Assembly: GCF_001720485.1 (NCBI RefSeq)
Contig: NZ_CP017114.1
Location: 2,914,001-2,978,000, forward strand
Direction: 5' to 3'
Source of the DNA: Cobetia marina
GTDB taxonomy: Bacteria > Pseudomonadota > Gammaproteobacteria > Pseudomonadales > Halomonadaceae
Length of the DNA stretch: 64,000 bases
Position numbers and translations under genes: made by a program. Shown here piece by piece: positions 46,631 to 51,161 of the stretch; within the stretch, counting starts at the first letter, position 1, and each line of letters starts with the position of its first letter. The notes below the pieces were generated by a model. It made no database searches. It was not told the DNA's origin and was given only the letters and a program-made list of their open reading frames with translations.

Positions 46631-49600
46631 TCAGCGCTTGCCAGTGTCCTTGTCATTGCCCGCTGAGCCATCCGTCTTGCTGGCCGTAGGCTTGGCATCA
46701 TCCTTCTTGGCCTCTTCCGCTGCCTTGGCGGCGGCGGCCTTGCTGGCGCTGGAGGGACGACCACGGCGCGGCTTGGGCGCTTCGCTGGTGGTGTCGCTCT
46801 TGGCATCTGCACCCGCCGCACTGCCAGTGTCACTCTTGGCGGCAGATCCAGCAGCCTTGGCAGTGCTTCCAGCACCTGTGCTGCTGGCGATCTTGGCAGT
46901 GCTTCCGGTGCTCGCACTCCCTGTCGAGCTGGAGGCTGGCTTGCTGGCCGCGGCGCGCTTGGTGGTGCTGGCTGTCGTCTTTCTGGAGGCCGCCGGCTTG
47001 CTTGCCGCGGTGCTCTTGGGAGCACTGGCCGCCGCCTTGCTCTGTGTCGCAGGCTGCTTGGCAGCGGGCGATGTCGCCGTGCTGCTGGAGCCCGAGGCAG
47101 TGGAAGCAGCGCCGCCGGTTGAGGTGCCGGACGCAGACGTCTTGCTGTCAGAGGCTGGCTTGCTTGCCGTCGTCTTGGCCGCAGTTGTCTTGCTCGCGGT
47201 CGTCTTGTTCGCGGTCGTCTTGTTGGCAGCTGTCTTGCGCGGCGTGGAGGTCTTTCTCGCCGTGGTGGTCTTCGCCGTTGAGCTACCTGTACTGCTGGCA
47301 GCCGTGCTCGCAGTGCTCGGTTTTGCCGTGCTCGGTTTTGCCGTGCTCTGTTTTGCAGTGCTGTCGCTGGCCGTGCTGCTGGTGGGCGTTGCGCTCTTGG
47401 CAGCAGTGCTCTTGGCAGCAGTGCTCTTGGCAGCAGTGCTCTTGGTAGCAGGGCTTTTGGAAGCTGTGCTCTTGGGTGCAGCACGTTTGCGCGCGGCGGG
47501 CTTGCTTGCCGGCGCTGCTGACTCAGTAGCCGCTGATGCCGCCTTGGAAGCGGCAGGCCCGGTGCTGGCGCCTTGCGCCCTGGAGGCACCGGACGAGCTG
47601 CTGCCCTTCGCGTCGCTGGCATCATTGCTCGCCTTGCCCGCCGCGCTCCCTGTCATTGCCGACACCATCTCTTCCAGCGGCAATGTCACCTGCTTGAGCG
47701 CGTCATTCACACTCTTCTCGACCGTCTCCTGCACATCACGCACGGTCTTGAGCTGCGCCTGTGCGGCTGAGGTGATCTCTTCCGGCACAGTCTGGCCGAG
47801 TACTTCCGGAATGGTCTGGCGCGCATAACGCCCCGGCGCCGCTTCGATCACGTCGAGCTTGCCCTCACCCGGCGTGCGCGCAGAGACTTCCGGTTCAGGC
47901 TCGACGAAACCATTGCCGGACATCCATGCCTGCCAGTCATTCCACCAGGAGCCTTCATGCGCCTCGGTGCCCTCAAGCCAGGCATCCGGTGTCGCCGGCA
48001 GCTCGTCATTGGTGACGTAGCCGTACTTGTTCTTGTGCGGCGGATTGACGATACCCGCGATATGGCCTGAGCCACCCAGCACGAAGCGCTTGATGGAAGC
48101 CTTGGGCAGCTGGGTGCCGTTGTAGGTGGTCTGCCACTTGGCGATGTGATCCTCGCGGGCAGAGACCCAATAGCTGGGAATCTCGATCTGCGAGAGGTCG
48201 ATCGGCACACCGTCCAGCTCGATACCGCCGGGCTGCACAAGGCGGTTCTCCAGATACATGTGACGCAGATACCAGGCATGGGTACCGGCCGGCAGGTTGG
48301 TGCCGTCGGTATTCCAGTACAGCAGGTCGAACGCGGTCGGCGCTTCGCCCTTGAGATAGTTGGAGACGTAGAACGACCAGAAGAGGTCATTCTCGCGCAG
48401 CAGGTTGAAGGAGAACGCCATCACGCGGCCATCCAGGTAGCCGTCCTGCGCCATCTGCTTCTCAAGGCCCTGCAGTACCGGCTCGTTGAGGAAGACACCG
48501 ATCTCGCCGGGATCGGAGAAGTCCTGCAACGTCGCCATGTAACTGACCGAGCGCACGCGATCCGCCTGTTTCCTGGCCGTGAGATAGGCCATGGTGCTGG
48601 CCGTCAGCGTGCCGCCGATGCAGTAGGACAGGATATTGACCTGCTTCTCGCCGGTGGCCTGTTCGATGGCATCCATCGCGGCAAGCGGCCCCATCTGCAT
48701 GTAATCGGCCCAGGTGAGATCGCTCTGCTCCGGCCCGGGATTGCGCCAGGAGATCAGGAACACGGTGTGCCCCTGCTCCACCAGCCAGCGCATCATCGAA
48801 TTGTCCTGACGCAGATCGAGAATGTAGTACTTGTTGATCCACGGCGGCACGACCAGCAACGGCGTACTGAAGGCCTTTTCCGTCGCCGGGCGGTACTGGA
48901 TCAGCTGGATCAGCTCATTCTCGAATACCACATCCCCCGGCGTGACGGCGATGTTGTCGCCGAGACGGAAGGCTTCGGTGTCGGTCATCGCGACATTGAT
49001 GCCTTCGGCGGAGTTGGCAAGGTCTTCCCGCAGACGCTTCAAGCCGTCGAGCAGATTCTGGCCGCCGGTTTCACGGGTCACCCGCTGCACTTCCGGGTTG
49101 GTGGAGGCGAAGTTGGAGGGCGAGAAGGCACTGACGTACTGGCGCGCGTAGAACTCGAGATTGCGCTTCTGGCTCTCCGGCAATCCCTTGATGCCCGCCA
49201 GCATCTCATCCACGGCGCGCGAGAACAGCAGGTATTGCTGCACGAGGAAGTGATAATACGGTTCGCTCTGCCAAGCCTCATCGCGGAAGCGACGATCAGA
49301 GCGTGCGGGGCTGATCACGGGCTCGACACTCTCACCGCTCATCTCGCGCAGCGTGCCCTGCATCAGGGCCATCTGGTCCTGGAAGAGGCGGGTCTGCGTG
49401 GAAATCAGCAATTGGGGGTCACGTGCCAGCGCCTCCGCGCCTGCCTGGAAGCAACGTCCCATCTCGTCGTAGATGGTGGAGGCAGCAGCACTTGGCCACA
49501 GGCGCTCCAGCATGTCACTCATCAGAGCCTGATACTGGGTGCTGGCTTCCTGTACCACGCCGGCCCATTCACCGCCGTCGACGCCATCGGGGAACAGATG

Positions 49601-49654
49601 GGAAAAGGCCTGAGAGAATGCCTGAGAAAGTGCCTGCTGCTGGGCTGAAACCAT
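46631..49654 (-). CDS. phaC: Class I PHA synthase with histone-like C-terminal tail
   Basis: Polymerises (R)-3-hydroxyacyl-CoA into polyhydroxyalkanoate on granules. Residues 1-600 are a normal class I synthase with the catalytic triad Cys345 (SYCIGGT), Asp502 (REDHIAKW) and His531 (GGSGHIAG). A short phasin-like helix follows (about 610-660, LKTVRDVQETVEKSVNDALKQV). From about 670 to 1007 there is a Lys/Ala/Ser/Thr low-complexity tail with STAAK-type pentapeptides and, near 961-969, PKPRRGRPS, an AT-hook-like core. Class I enzymes are usually about 590 aa, so the tail is the odd feature. Start 49654 has GGAGG about 10 nt upstream. A DNA-binding role for the tail is inferred. Confidence 0.93.
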   Translation of the reverse strand: MVSAQQQALSQAFSQAFSHLFPDGVDGGEWAGVVQEASTQYQALMSDMLERLWPSAAASTIYDEMGRCFQAGAEALARDPQLLISTQTRLFQDQMALMQGTLREMSGESVEPVISPARSDRRFRDEAWQSEPYYHFLVQQYLLFSRAVDEMLAGIKGLPESQKRNLEFYARQYVSAFSPSNFASTNPEVQRVTRETGGQNLLDGLKRLREDLANSAEGINVAMTDTEAFRLGDNIAVTPGDVVFENELIQLIQYRPATEKAFSTPLLVVPPWINKYYILDLRQDNSMMRWLVEQGHTVFLISWRNPGPEQSDLTWADYMQMGPLAAMDAIEQATGEKQVNILSYCIGGTLTASTMAYLTARKQADRVRSVSYMATLQDFSDPGEIGVFLNEPVLQGLEKQMAQDGYLDGRVMAFSFNLLRENDLFWSFYVSNYLKGEAPTAFDLLYWNTDGTNLPAGTHAWYLRHMYLENRLVQPGGIELDGVPIDLSQIEIPSYWVSAREDHIAKWQTTYNGTQLPKASIKRFVLGGSGHIAGIVNPPHKNKYGYVTNDELPATPDAWLEGTEAHEGSWWNDWQAWMSGNGFVEPEPEVSARTPGEGKLDVIEAAPGRYARQTIPEVLGQTVPEEITSAAQAQLKTVRDVQETVEKSVNDALKQVTLPLEEMVSAMTGSAAGKASNDASDAKGSSSSGASRAQGASTGPAASKAASAATESAAPASKPAARKRAAPKSTASKSPATKSTAAKSTAAKSTAAKSATPTSSTASDSTAKQSTAKPSTAKPSTASTAASSTGSSTAKTTTARKTSTPRKTAANKTTANKTTASKTTAAKTTASKPASDSKTSASGTSTGGAASTASGSSSTATSPAAKQPATQSKAAASAPKSTAASKPAASRKTTASTTKRAAASKPASSSTGSASTGSTAKIASSTGAGSTAKAAGSAAKSDTGSAAGADAKSDTTSEAPKPRRGRPSSASKAAAAKAAEEAKKDDAKPTASKTDGSAGNDKDTGKR
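47169..47450. repeat. 15-bp-period repeats in the phaC tail
   Basis: Three tandem blocks with a 15-bp period, all in frame: 47169-47228 (GTCGTCTTGTTCGCG type), 47313-47357 (GTGCTCGGTTTTGCC type, 3 units) and 47391-47450 (GTGCTCTTGGCAGCA type, 4 units). On the minus strand each unit encodes a Lys/Thr/Ser/Ala pentapeptide. Confidence 0.9.
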
Positions 49655-49850
49655 ATCGCCCGTCCTCCTTGTCATTGGCTATCGAAGCATGGCTGTCGAA
49701 CGAACGCCGACATGCACGATTTCATCGAACCGAATCCTTCCGTACCTCTGCAGTGCAATGCCCTCGAAAGGCGTTCGCGGCGCCGTCACTGGCACCTTGC
49801 ACCGACTCTCTTCACTCTGGCGTCACTTTGGCAGGCCAGAGCCTTGCAGT

Positions 49851-49899
49851 CCGCTTTCCGTCGCATTCATGCCAGAGGCGCGAATACGACGGAAAGCCG
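49851..49899. repeat. 18-bp inverted repeat upstream of phaC
   Basis: CCGCTTTCCGTCGCATTC pairs with GAATACGACGGAAAGCCG, with one or two mismatches around a 13-nt loop, about 200 nt before the phaC start and after the phaP terminator. No T-run follows on either strand, so an operator or leader structure is likelier than a terminator. Confidence 0.6.
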
Positions 49900-49989
49900 G
49901 CTGAGACCTCTCATCTGTCGTCTTGCCGCCTCGGGGGGCGACTCTCAGCATGCACCCGGGCCGTGATGGGGGCAATGCCTGACCTCGCC

Positions 49990-50019
49990 AAAAAAAGGGC
50001 TGGCGCATGCGCCAGCCCT
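49990..50019 (-). terminator. Strong intrinsic terminator of phaP
   Basis: Minus strand: AGGGCTGGCGCATGCGCCAGCCCT palindrome split at GCGC|ATGC, then seven T residues, 12 nt past the phaP stop. It separates phaP transcription from phaC. Confidence 0.9.
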
Positions 50020-50031
50020 CTCGATGATTCT

Positions 50032-50481
50032 TCAGCTCTGCTTGGCGCGGCTGGTGGCACTTGCCGGCTTGCTGGTGCTGTCTTTCGCGGCATCCGCCGT
50101 GGCGGAAGACGCCTTGCTGGCAGCGGAAGATGCCTTGTCCGTGGCTTCCTTGCCCGCATCGGAATAGGCCTGTTCCATCTGGCTGCGCATCTCGTTGCCC
50201 ATTTCCGCCAGTTTCAGGGAATCGTCCATCATCTGCTGGGACAGCTCGGTGGCCACTTCCAGCTGACGATTGCCGAATTCGCTGAGCTGCTCGACACTCT
50301 TCACTTCCGTCGCGGCGCGGGCACGCTCGAAACCGGTATCGGCATAGCGCTTGGCGGCATCCATCTGGAACTCGGCCACCTTGCTCATGTGGTCGAGCAC
50401 CAGGCTGTTGAGCTTGCGCATCGGCTGATAGAAGCTGCGAGCCTGCTCGGCAAAGGCGTTGAACATCTGATCCTGTTGCAT
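50032..50481 (-). CDS. phaP: Phasin (PHA granule-associated protein)
   Basis: A 149-aa phasin. Residues 1-115 are amphipathic helices typical of the family (MFNAFAEQARSFYQPMRKLNSLVLDHMSKVAEFQMDAAKRYAD), which coat PHA granules. The last 35 residues form a basic Ala/Ser/Lys tail (SKASSATADAAKDSTSKPAS...RAKQS) similar in composition to the PhaC tail. GGAGG supports start 50481. It lies between phaC and a third granule-type gene and has its own strong terminator, which suits a highly expressed coat protein. Confidence 0.9.
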   Translation of the reverse strand: MQQDQMFNAFAEQARSFYQPMRKLNSLVLDHMSKVAEFQMDAAKRYADTGFERARAATEVKSVEQLSEFGNRQLEVATELSQQMMDDSLKLAEMGNEMRSQMEQAYSDAGKEATDKASSAASKASSATADAAKDSTSKPASATSRAKQS

Positions 50482-50651
50482 GACGGTTCCTCCCATGGAT
50501 TCCGTACCGGAAGAGCGCGCAGAAGACTCTGCGCCATCTTTGGAGCGCAGCATTATGCTGCACTGCACAAAGACTAGTCTGCTCCCGAAGCGGTTGCAAT
50601 CCCATGACGATAATCCTGCACCGCAATGCCTTCAGCTTCCCTCGTCATCCA

Positions 50652-51161
50652 TCAGTCACGCTGACTGCGTGAGCGCGCGCTGGCGGCCTTGGGTCTGTCC
50701 TCAGCGGCCGCCTTCTGCGCAGCTCCCGCATGCGGGTCATTCCCAGCGGGCTCACTGTCGCCACCACTGGCCCCACCACTGGCGTTGCCCGTGCCCTGCT
50801 GACCGAACTGCTGCAAGGTATCCAGCATCATCTTCTGGTACTGCTGGAAAGCCGCCATGCCCTTGGCCATGCTGTCGCCCATCTCATTGGATGAGGCCCC
50901 CGGGGAATCGGCCGCTGACGCGCCGCCCATCCCCGCCATGCCTTCCGCCATCCCCGGCGGCATGAACCTGGCAAACGGCGTGCCCGCCCCCGGTGTCATC
51001 AGCGGCTTGAGCAGGCTCATCGGATCATAGCCCTCGACGCCCGCTTCCATCTGACGACGAAAGCGCTCCATCAATTCCTGTTGAAAGGCTTCCACATCCG
51101 GCAGGCCCATCGCCTGGCGAAACTCCTGAGGCGTCAGGTCGAATTCGACATTGATCTTCAT
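50652..51161 (-). CDS. DUF6489-like protein of the PHA locus
   Basis: A 169-aa protein whose N-terminus (MKINVEFDLTPQEFRQAMGLPDVEAFQQELMERFRRQM) resembles DUF6489 proteins, which I recall near PHA genes. The middle is Met/Gly/Pro-rich and contains an amphipathic helix (MAAFQQYQKMMLDTLQQFG); the end is a basic, disordered Ala/Arg/Ser tail. It is probably granule-associated or a synthase accessory factor by location. It is 170 bp upstream of phaP on the same strand. The function is not established. Confidence 0.65.
   Translation of the reverse strand: MKINVEFDLTPQEFRQAMGLPDVEAFQQELMERFRRQMEAGVEGYDPMSLLKPLMTPGAGTPFARFMPPGMAEGMAGMGGASAADSPGASSNEMGDSMAKGMAAFQQYQKMMLDTLQQFGQQGTGNASGGASGGDSEPAGNDPHAGAAQKAAAEDRPKAASARSRSQRD

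Follow-up and report, generated by a model that had tools for sequence, protein, structure and literature searches.

Can a polyhydroxyalkanoate (PHA) synthase itself tie the storage granule that it builds to the chromosome? This question was raised by phaC2 of Cobetia marina, which lies on the minus strand of a 64,000-nucleotide stretch of contig NZ_CP017114.1 (the window), in a genome consisting of a single contig of 4,176,400 bases. PhaC2 continues past its catalytic body into a long basic tail. We consider the chances that this tail tethers the granule to the chromosome to be about even, judging from sequence features. This central claim had already been published as a hypothesis in 2021 and its novelty is low; the additions made here are a family survey, tests of selection and periodicity, and the association of the protein family DUF6489 with PHA synthases.

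Domain organization of PhaC2

The class I synthase profile TIGR01838 matched PhaC2 with 737 bits (cut-off 622.65), and the PhaC box with the active cysteine was found as SYCIG at residue 350. Counted from the Met at codon 8, the protein contained 1007 amino acids with a mass of 106.4 kDa. Table 3 of PMC8686332 gives 106.4 kDa for PhaC2 of C. marina DSM 4741T and 64.0 kDa with an isoelectric point (pI) of 5.31 for its PhaC1, and the second synthase of the present genome, PhaC1 (583 amino acids, 64.0 kDa, pI 5.31), agreed with these values. The tailed PhaC2 of strain SF2003, a strain assigned to Cobetia in PMC8686332, has been reported to yield PHA in the non-producing Cupriavidus necator PHB-4; therefore, the tail is no block to catalysis, and the tailed enzyme is functional in another host. 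The best explanation for the Cobetia PhaC2 is that a functional class I enzyme gained an extension in the Cobetia lineage, made up of a conserved linker predicted to be helical and some 220-340 basic residues of low complexity, usually with RGRP close to the end.

The part of PhaC2 past residue 620 comprised 394 residues with 14.7% Lys and Arg and 6.3% Asp and Glu, giving a net charge of +33 and a pI of 10.35. At the junction of body and tail, the AlphaFold2 (AF2) model, built on a shallow alignment of 34 sequences, placed a helix of 44 residues (632-675) whose block means of predicted local distance difference test (pLDDT) values were 60, 72, 76, 55, and 44. The predicted helix was amphipathic, with a hydrophobic moment of 0.43-0.60 in 18-residue windows starting at residues 632-656, a value taken without a shuffled control. 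No Pfam match above the curated cut-off was found for the stretch of residues 621-675. The remaining 339 residues (676-1014) agreed well with the initial annotation of this DNA, which had described about 335 extra C-terminal Lys/Ala/Ser/Thr residues with an RGRP core: Ala, Ser, Thr, Gly, and Lys made up 84% of them, and RGRP occurred once, in the context PKPRRGRPSS. An AT-hook motif consists of an R-G-R-P core with basic flanks. Between residues 691 and 1014, Lys and Arg returned at every fifth position more regularly than composition alone would give (z 6.3 relative to shuffled sequences), and the underlying DNA has tandem repeats of the matching length, 15 bp. The histone H1-like HC2 profile (PF07382) scored 23.1 bits with whole PhaC2 and 26.6 bits with the tail alone, below its cut-off of 40, and nowhere else in the genome did HC2 match. 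The pLDDT was below 50 throughout the tail (mean of the model 45.8), from which we infer a disordered tail.

Selection on the tail

The repeat DNA was also open in other frames (465 amino acids on the minus strand and 396 on the plus strand), so that openness of the reading frame alone is weak evidence for coding. Among 15 pairs from six Cobetia genomes, with an alignment across the repeats that was uncertain, worst for the genomes of L116 and L113, the ratio of nonsynonymous to synonymous substitution rates (dN/dS) was 0.01-0.09 in the synthase body, 0.10-0.31 in residues 621-675, the best-conserved part of the extension, and 0.21-0.50 from residue 676 onward. The values for the tail support real coding.

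Residues 612-1014 were searched against 5.8 billion proteins (sizes of about 558-1775 amino acids), and the 7979 candidates with the most shared words were scored. All 33 matches among them were PhaC proteins with a PhaC_N domain, many of them from close strains, with identities to the window protein down to 43%. Every one of the 33 had a tail of 275-389 residues with a net charge of +19 to +32, a pI of 10.0-10.4 and a Lys/Arg period of five at a z of at least 3.0, and the 621-675 stretch was recognizable in each. As judged from these sequences, charge and length are kept while the tail sequence turns over. RGRP was present in 30 of the 33 homologues and in five of the six Cobetia genomes, and AAKP in two of the 33. 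The only Cobetia genome of the six lacking RGRP, that of L116, had five AAKP in its place, a hint that the conserved property is charge and not a particular motif. When the tail alone was searched (proteins of about 222-705 amino acids, 7994 candidates scored), four matches were obtained (P0034-P0037; E 4e-5 to 3e-4), all with a Ku DNA end-binding domain. These weak matches are probably compositional, reflecting similar basic tails, yet they are DNA-binding proteins.

Distribution of the tail among relatives

Scanning named genomes with the synthase body gave the best 80 of 104 relatives, of which 79 were complete, since one (L082) was ended by the contig end. A long, strongly basic tail was found only in Cobetia among these 79: two sequences, both from this genus, had 345 and 278 residues past residue 620 with pI values of 10.1 and 10.2, and 75 had at most 39 residues with an acidic pI. 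Two Vreelandella synthases (V. zhuhanensis, L062:4956-7208, and V. rituensis, L079:4956-7205) carried TEKQ/PEKQ repeat tails of 153 and 152 residues with near-balanced charge (net 0.02-0.05 per residue), pI values of 8.9 and 9.5, and periods of five and ten residues. Within Cobetia itself, all six sampled genomes, which include those of L003 and L004, had a tail of 274-394 residues. The initial annotation had named loss of the tail in most close relatives as an observation that would refute its idea, and formally this is the outcome, with at most 39 residues in 75 of the 79. The pattern is read here as a gain in Cobetia, where all six genomes are tailed, rather than a loss elsewhere.

A different, shorter Lys-rich extension exists in another genus of the family, as seen in the sequences of genus g3, where four of the five genomes examined (L098, L099, L103, and L106/L128, the last two being one genome) had Lys/Ala/Pro-rich PhaC tails of 59-111 residues and the fifth (L089) had 13 residues; g3 also includes three genomes, outside this count, whose frames have 634-640 amino acids. 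Other long synthase frames of the family were considered as further tailed enzymes and rejected. Among the 11 such loci listed (L118-L128, frames of 697-900 amino acids), ten had at most 14 residues past the match and were long only in the upstream part of the frame; L128 of g3 alone differed. Four of these loci (L118-L121) held a second synthase type of the family, with frames of 806-900 amino acids that extended upstream of the synthase match and not C-terminally. In a sample of 369 genomes of the class, PhaC_N was found in 94, and among the rows listed only the protein of the window had a frame above 800 amino acids.

Comparison with known granule tethers

An extended basic C-terminus of PhaC2 has been described in all 19 Cobetia genomes studied by Christensen et al. 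(2021, PMC8686332), with a C-terminal pI above 10 in each. That paper reported HC2-like matches in the extension, raised surface anchoring as a possible role, and proposed in silico that the tail takes over the role of PhaM and tethers the carbonosome to DNA, an idea that in its own words awaits in vitro or in vivo methods; no PhaM homologue was found there in Cobetia sp. MC34. The word AT-hook is absent from its main text, and its accessible text reports no five-residue period, tail selection or family survey and mentions helices only in general terms. The view in the initial annotation that DNA coupling is built into the synthase was therefore a reasonable best guess resting on sequence facts that hold, but it was not new.

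Known tethers sit with one end on the granule and bind DNA non-specifically with the other, and those named for polyhydroxybutyrate granules are PhaM, PhaF, and PhaH only, according to the accessible part of a review (PMC13052382). PhaM of C. necator is an activator of PhaC that also couples the granules to the nucleoid (PMC3556143; PMC13052382); it is a separate protein, unlike the PhaC2 tail, and is compared here by function only. AlgP of Pseudomonas aeruginosa has a PhaF-like DNA-binding tail and spaces storage granules, but it is a separate protein that acts on polyphosphate granules (PMC13052382). In PhaF of Pseudomonas, an amphipathic helix that binds the granule is likewise followed by a disordered Lys/Ala-rich tail with regular Lys spacing (PMC3574117), although PhaF is a separate phasin with an AlgP/H1-like tail and the Cobetia tail sits on the synthase.

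The similarity to the PhaF repeat claimed in the initial annotation did not hold in detail. Two PhaF-like controls from the order (L253 and L256) had AAKP tails with a four-residue period (z 7.7 and 9.4), in which acidic residues were absent and the net charge was 0.20 per residue, whereas the basic regions of the six Cobetia proteins had a period of five (z 2.5 for L113 and 5.4-6.3 for the other five) and a net charge of 0.10-0.12 per residue, about half that of the controls; AAKP was absent from the tail of the window. The PhaF/PhaI profile PF05597 matched neither PhaC2 nor the rest of the genome. An origin of the tail by fusion with PhaF was not supported: among the 7979 candidates scored, residues 612-1014 matched only PhaC, the tail alone matched no phasin among its 7994, and period and charge density differ. 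By its sequence, the tail may work like that of PhaF, but it is not a PhaF tail.

Proposed mechanism and alternative explanations

If the basic tail is a tether, PhaC2 would nucleate the granule and the helix would help to hold it at the surface or bring synthase subunits together as pairs, while the flexible tail would make many weak electrostatic contacts with chromosomal DNA without sequence preference. Each granule would thus be anchored to the nucleoid as soon as its first polymer chain forms and would be spread and inherited along with the nucleoid, as happens through PhaM, PhaF, and PhaH in other bacteria. Tethering is favored because charge, length, and period were kept in every homologue and RGRP in most at a tail dN/dS of 0.21-0.50, because the sole HC2 match of the genome, though below cut-off, and the weak Ku matches fell on this tail, because PF05597 was missing from the genome and a PhaM homologue from Cobetia sp. 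MC34, and because the known tethers are built with one end for the granule and one for DNA.

Several results weigh against tethering. RGRP is not strictly required, being missing in three of the 33 homologues, and no match to the Pfam AT-hook profile was listed in the PhaC2 scan at E values up to 10, where the filters of HMMER may drop weak matches. The charge density is about half that of the PhaF controls. At least four further genomes of the family also had no PF05597 match, and therefore the tail is no needed substitute for PhaF. The evidence for disorder is weak since 646 of the 1014 residues, many of them in the synthase body, had a pLDDT below 50 in the model, and PSIPRED predicted ten helices and one strand in an extension that was otherwise mostly coil (PMC8686332). 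Finally, the period of five is also expected from 15-bp slippage alone, and no later test of the tether and no DNA-binding experiment was found in the searched literature, which was sparse in subscription journals and was judged by titles and the opening lines of abstracts.

Alternatively, the tail could act at the granule surface independently of DNA, as a disordered, charged brush or a sticky element that separates granules, recruits phasins or acidic proteins, or binds polyphosphate or RNA. The tail is of low complexity, poorly conserved in sequence, and modest in charge density, all of which is consistent with such an element, as is the surface anchoring raised in PMC8686332, and the Vreelandella tails, with the same five-residue period and near-balanced charge, suggest that a long, disordered tail may be of use in itself. 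However, a neutral brush would not need the net positive charge that was kept in all 33 Cobetia homologues, and we regard this explanation as unlikely. Less probable again is a role of the extension in synthase control or assembly, in which the helix would pair subunits or, as PhaM does in C. necator, activate the enzyme, with the tail as a passive or weakly useful trailer. The amphipathic character of residues 621-675, their recognizable presence in every homologue, and their lower dN/dS than that of the tail argue for it, but the stretch lacks a curated Pfam match, and a long basic tail kept in every Cobetia sequence found would stay unexplained.

A near-neutral repeat expansion, in which the C-terminus grew by slippage of 15-bp units in GC-rich DNA and was no more than tolerated by selection, is the least probable of these explanations in our estimate. 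The tandem arrays, the rapid turnover by insertion and deletion, the absence of the tail from nearly all named relatives, and the openness of the repeat DNA in other frames all fit this origin, but dN/dS did not exceed 0.50 in any of the 15 pairs, and charge, frame, and length were kept in all 33 homologues and RGRP in 30. If the tethering explanation is right, placement of the organelle would fall to the polymerase and not to a phasin-like adaptor, and the tail would offer a compact tag for controlling how many granules industrial PHA strains form and how these are inherited.

Basic ends of the phasin and DUF6489 proteins

The neighbouring phasin matched TIGR02809 with 86.5 bits (cut-off 65.85), and the DUF6489 protein matched PF20099 with 26.8 bits (cut-off 23.6). 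Their basic tails, reported in the initial annotation, were present but short: the last 37 residues of the phasin contained six Lys/Arg and three Asp/Glu, and the DUF6489 protein ended in AASARSRSQRD. Both are far shorter than the PhaC2 tail and are not genus-specific. Beside the 80 named Halomonadaceae synthases, nearly all of which lack a PhaC tail, a net positive charge was found in the last 25 residues of 77 of 78 phasins and of all 79 DUF6489 proteins; no phasin was found at L005 and L007 and no DUF6489 protein at L005, where only 588 upstream bases were available. Another family of the order, with a tailless synthase, also had a phasin with a short Lys/Ala-rich end. Among 38 aligned DUF6489 proteins (that of the window and 37 of the 79), the consensus end was ASARSRxKR with one invariant Arg, and the tail was missing from the proteins of g3 and of several further genera and families. 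No such tail was present on the genome's second phasin. On this sequence evidence, the phasin and DUF6489 ends are accessory features of the whole family and not a device of Cobetia only; the unusual part is the PhaC tail, and the picture of three tailed granule proteins as a special layout is mostly ordinary for the family. A terminal motif ..SxSRxK appeared to be common to the phasin and the DUF6489 protein.

Association of DUF6489 with PHA synthases

DUF6489 was followed with A2, a family profile made from 38 sequences. PF20099 was insensitive and missed three genomes (G005, G010, and G058), in all of which A2 matches; a Caulobacter control genome did match PF20099. DUF6489 was found in 110 of 151 genomes of the family, comprising 110 of the 115 with PhaC_N and none of the 36 without it (Fisher 9e-30, relatedness ignored). 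In four of the five exceptions (G007, G031, G046, and G089), PhaC_N matched only at E 1e-55 to 1e-59, the weaker range of the other synthase type; in the fifth (G008) the contig ended where DUF6489 would lie. A DUF6489 frame lay upstream of phaC in 79 of the 80 named loci, the exception being L005.

The association extended to the sample of the class, the two scans of which were apparently made on the same 369 genomes. PF07167 matched in 23 of 24 DUF6489-positive genomes and in 71 of 345 others (p 4.5e-14); the count was 21 of 22 (p 6e-13) when the genome of the window and one doubtful match were left out, and 19 of 24 against 53 of 345 (p 8e-11) when only strong PhaC_N matches were taken. At the level of the order, 43 genomes matched, and 39 loci were fetched, without the genome of the window and three others of its family. 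A synthase-type gene was present in 18 of these loci and was not seen in the other 21. Nine of the 18 genes were class I (one, L196, from the same family) and nine were of class III type; of the latter, six were scanned, with TIGR01836 as the best profile in all six and over its cut-off in four. The neighbours in L167 read as PhaE- and PhaR-like frames. At the class level, one of 22 loci (L237) held a class III PhaC (528.6 bits) and a PhaR (149 bits), and no PHA gene was found by the search in the other 21. The counts of 18 of 39 and one of 22 rule out DUF6489 as a gene that always stands beside phaC. By gene content, DUF6489 follows PHA synthesis without constant linkage, and its wider link is one of co-occurrence.

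These patterns make DUF6489 look like an undescribed PHA accessory protein, a candidate role for a family that had none. The name was not found in the searched literature, and the gene in this position is labelled only "hyp" in PMC8686332. The AF2 model of the protein (predicted template modelling score 0.23) was too poor for a fold search. A broader scheme, which we put forward as rather doubtful, is that Cobetia fused synthesis and tethering in one protein, that DUF6489 is a general PhaM-like partner of PHA synthases in Gammaproteobacteria, and that, given the basic end of DUF6489 in Halomonadaceae, coupling would be split differently among synthase, phasin, and DUF6489 by lineage. In family f24 of the order (L176, 6803-7183; L177-L179, L183, L184, and L189), DUF6489 proteins had long basic ends, for example RRSASSKSKS, with no synthase in the fetched stretch; by eye, the neighbour in L176 resembled an aconitase gene.

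Gene order and features of the locus

The genes are arranged on the minus strand in the order DUF6489, phaP, phaC2, and the gene past phaC2 on the opposite strand bears the name LysR in PMC8686332. The coordinates of the features are listed in Table 1.

Table 1. Features of the phaC2 locus, in positions of the window
Feature	Coordinates	Strand	Basis
phaC2, class I PHA synthase with C-terminal extension, 1014 amino acids	46631..49675	-	Open reading frame and profile matches
Synthase body, residues 1-619	47819..49675	-	TIGR01838 match 85-619; invariant columns up to I622 (34 sequences)
Predicted 44-residue helix, residues 632-675, body-tail junction	47651..47782	-	AF2 model, low confidence
Basic Ala/Ser/Thr/Lys tail, residues 676-1014 (339 amino acids), putatively disordered	46634..47650	-	Composition, pLDDT, period
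AT-hook-like RGRP core, residues 971-974, single occurrence	46754..46765	-	Sequence
15-bp tandem repeat, 5.5 copies, encoding S-T-A-A-K units	47393..47475	-	DNA sequence
Further 15-bp arrays	47169-47237, 47313-47362		
phaP (phasin_3), 149 amino acids from its ATG; short basic tail, residues 113-149	50032..50481	-	TIGR02809
DUF6489 protein, 169 amino acids, two conserved blocks and terminal AASARSRSQRD (50655-50687)	50655..51161	-	PF20099, alignment

Between phaP and phaC2, just past the phasin stop, a terminator-like GC-rich palindrome followed by a T-run was seen by eye on the minus strand (49990..50018); it was not among the matches of a consensus scan. It suggests a terminator at this place, which could set a high ratio of phasin to synthase.

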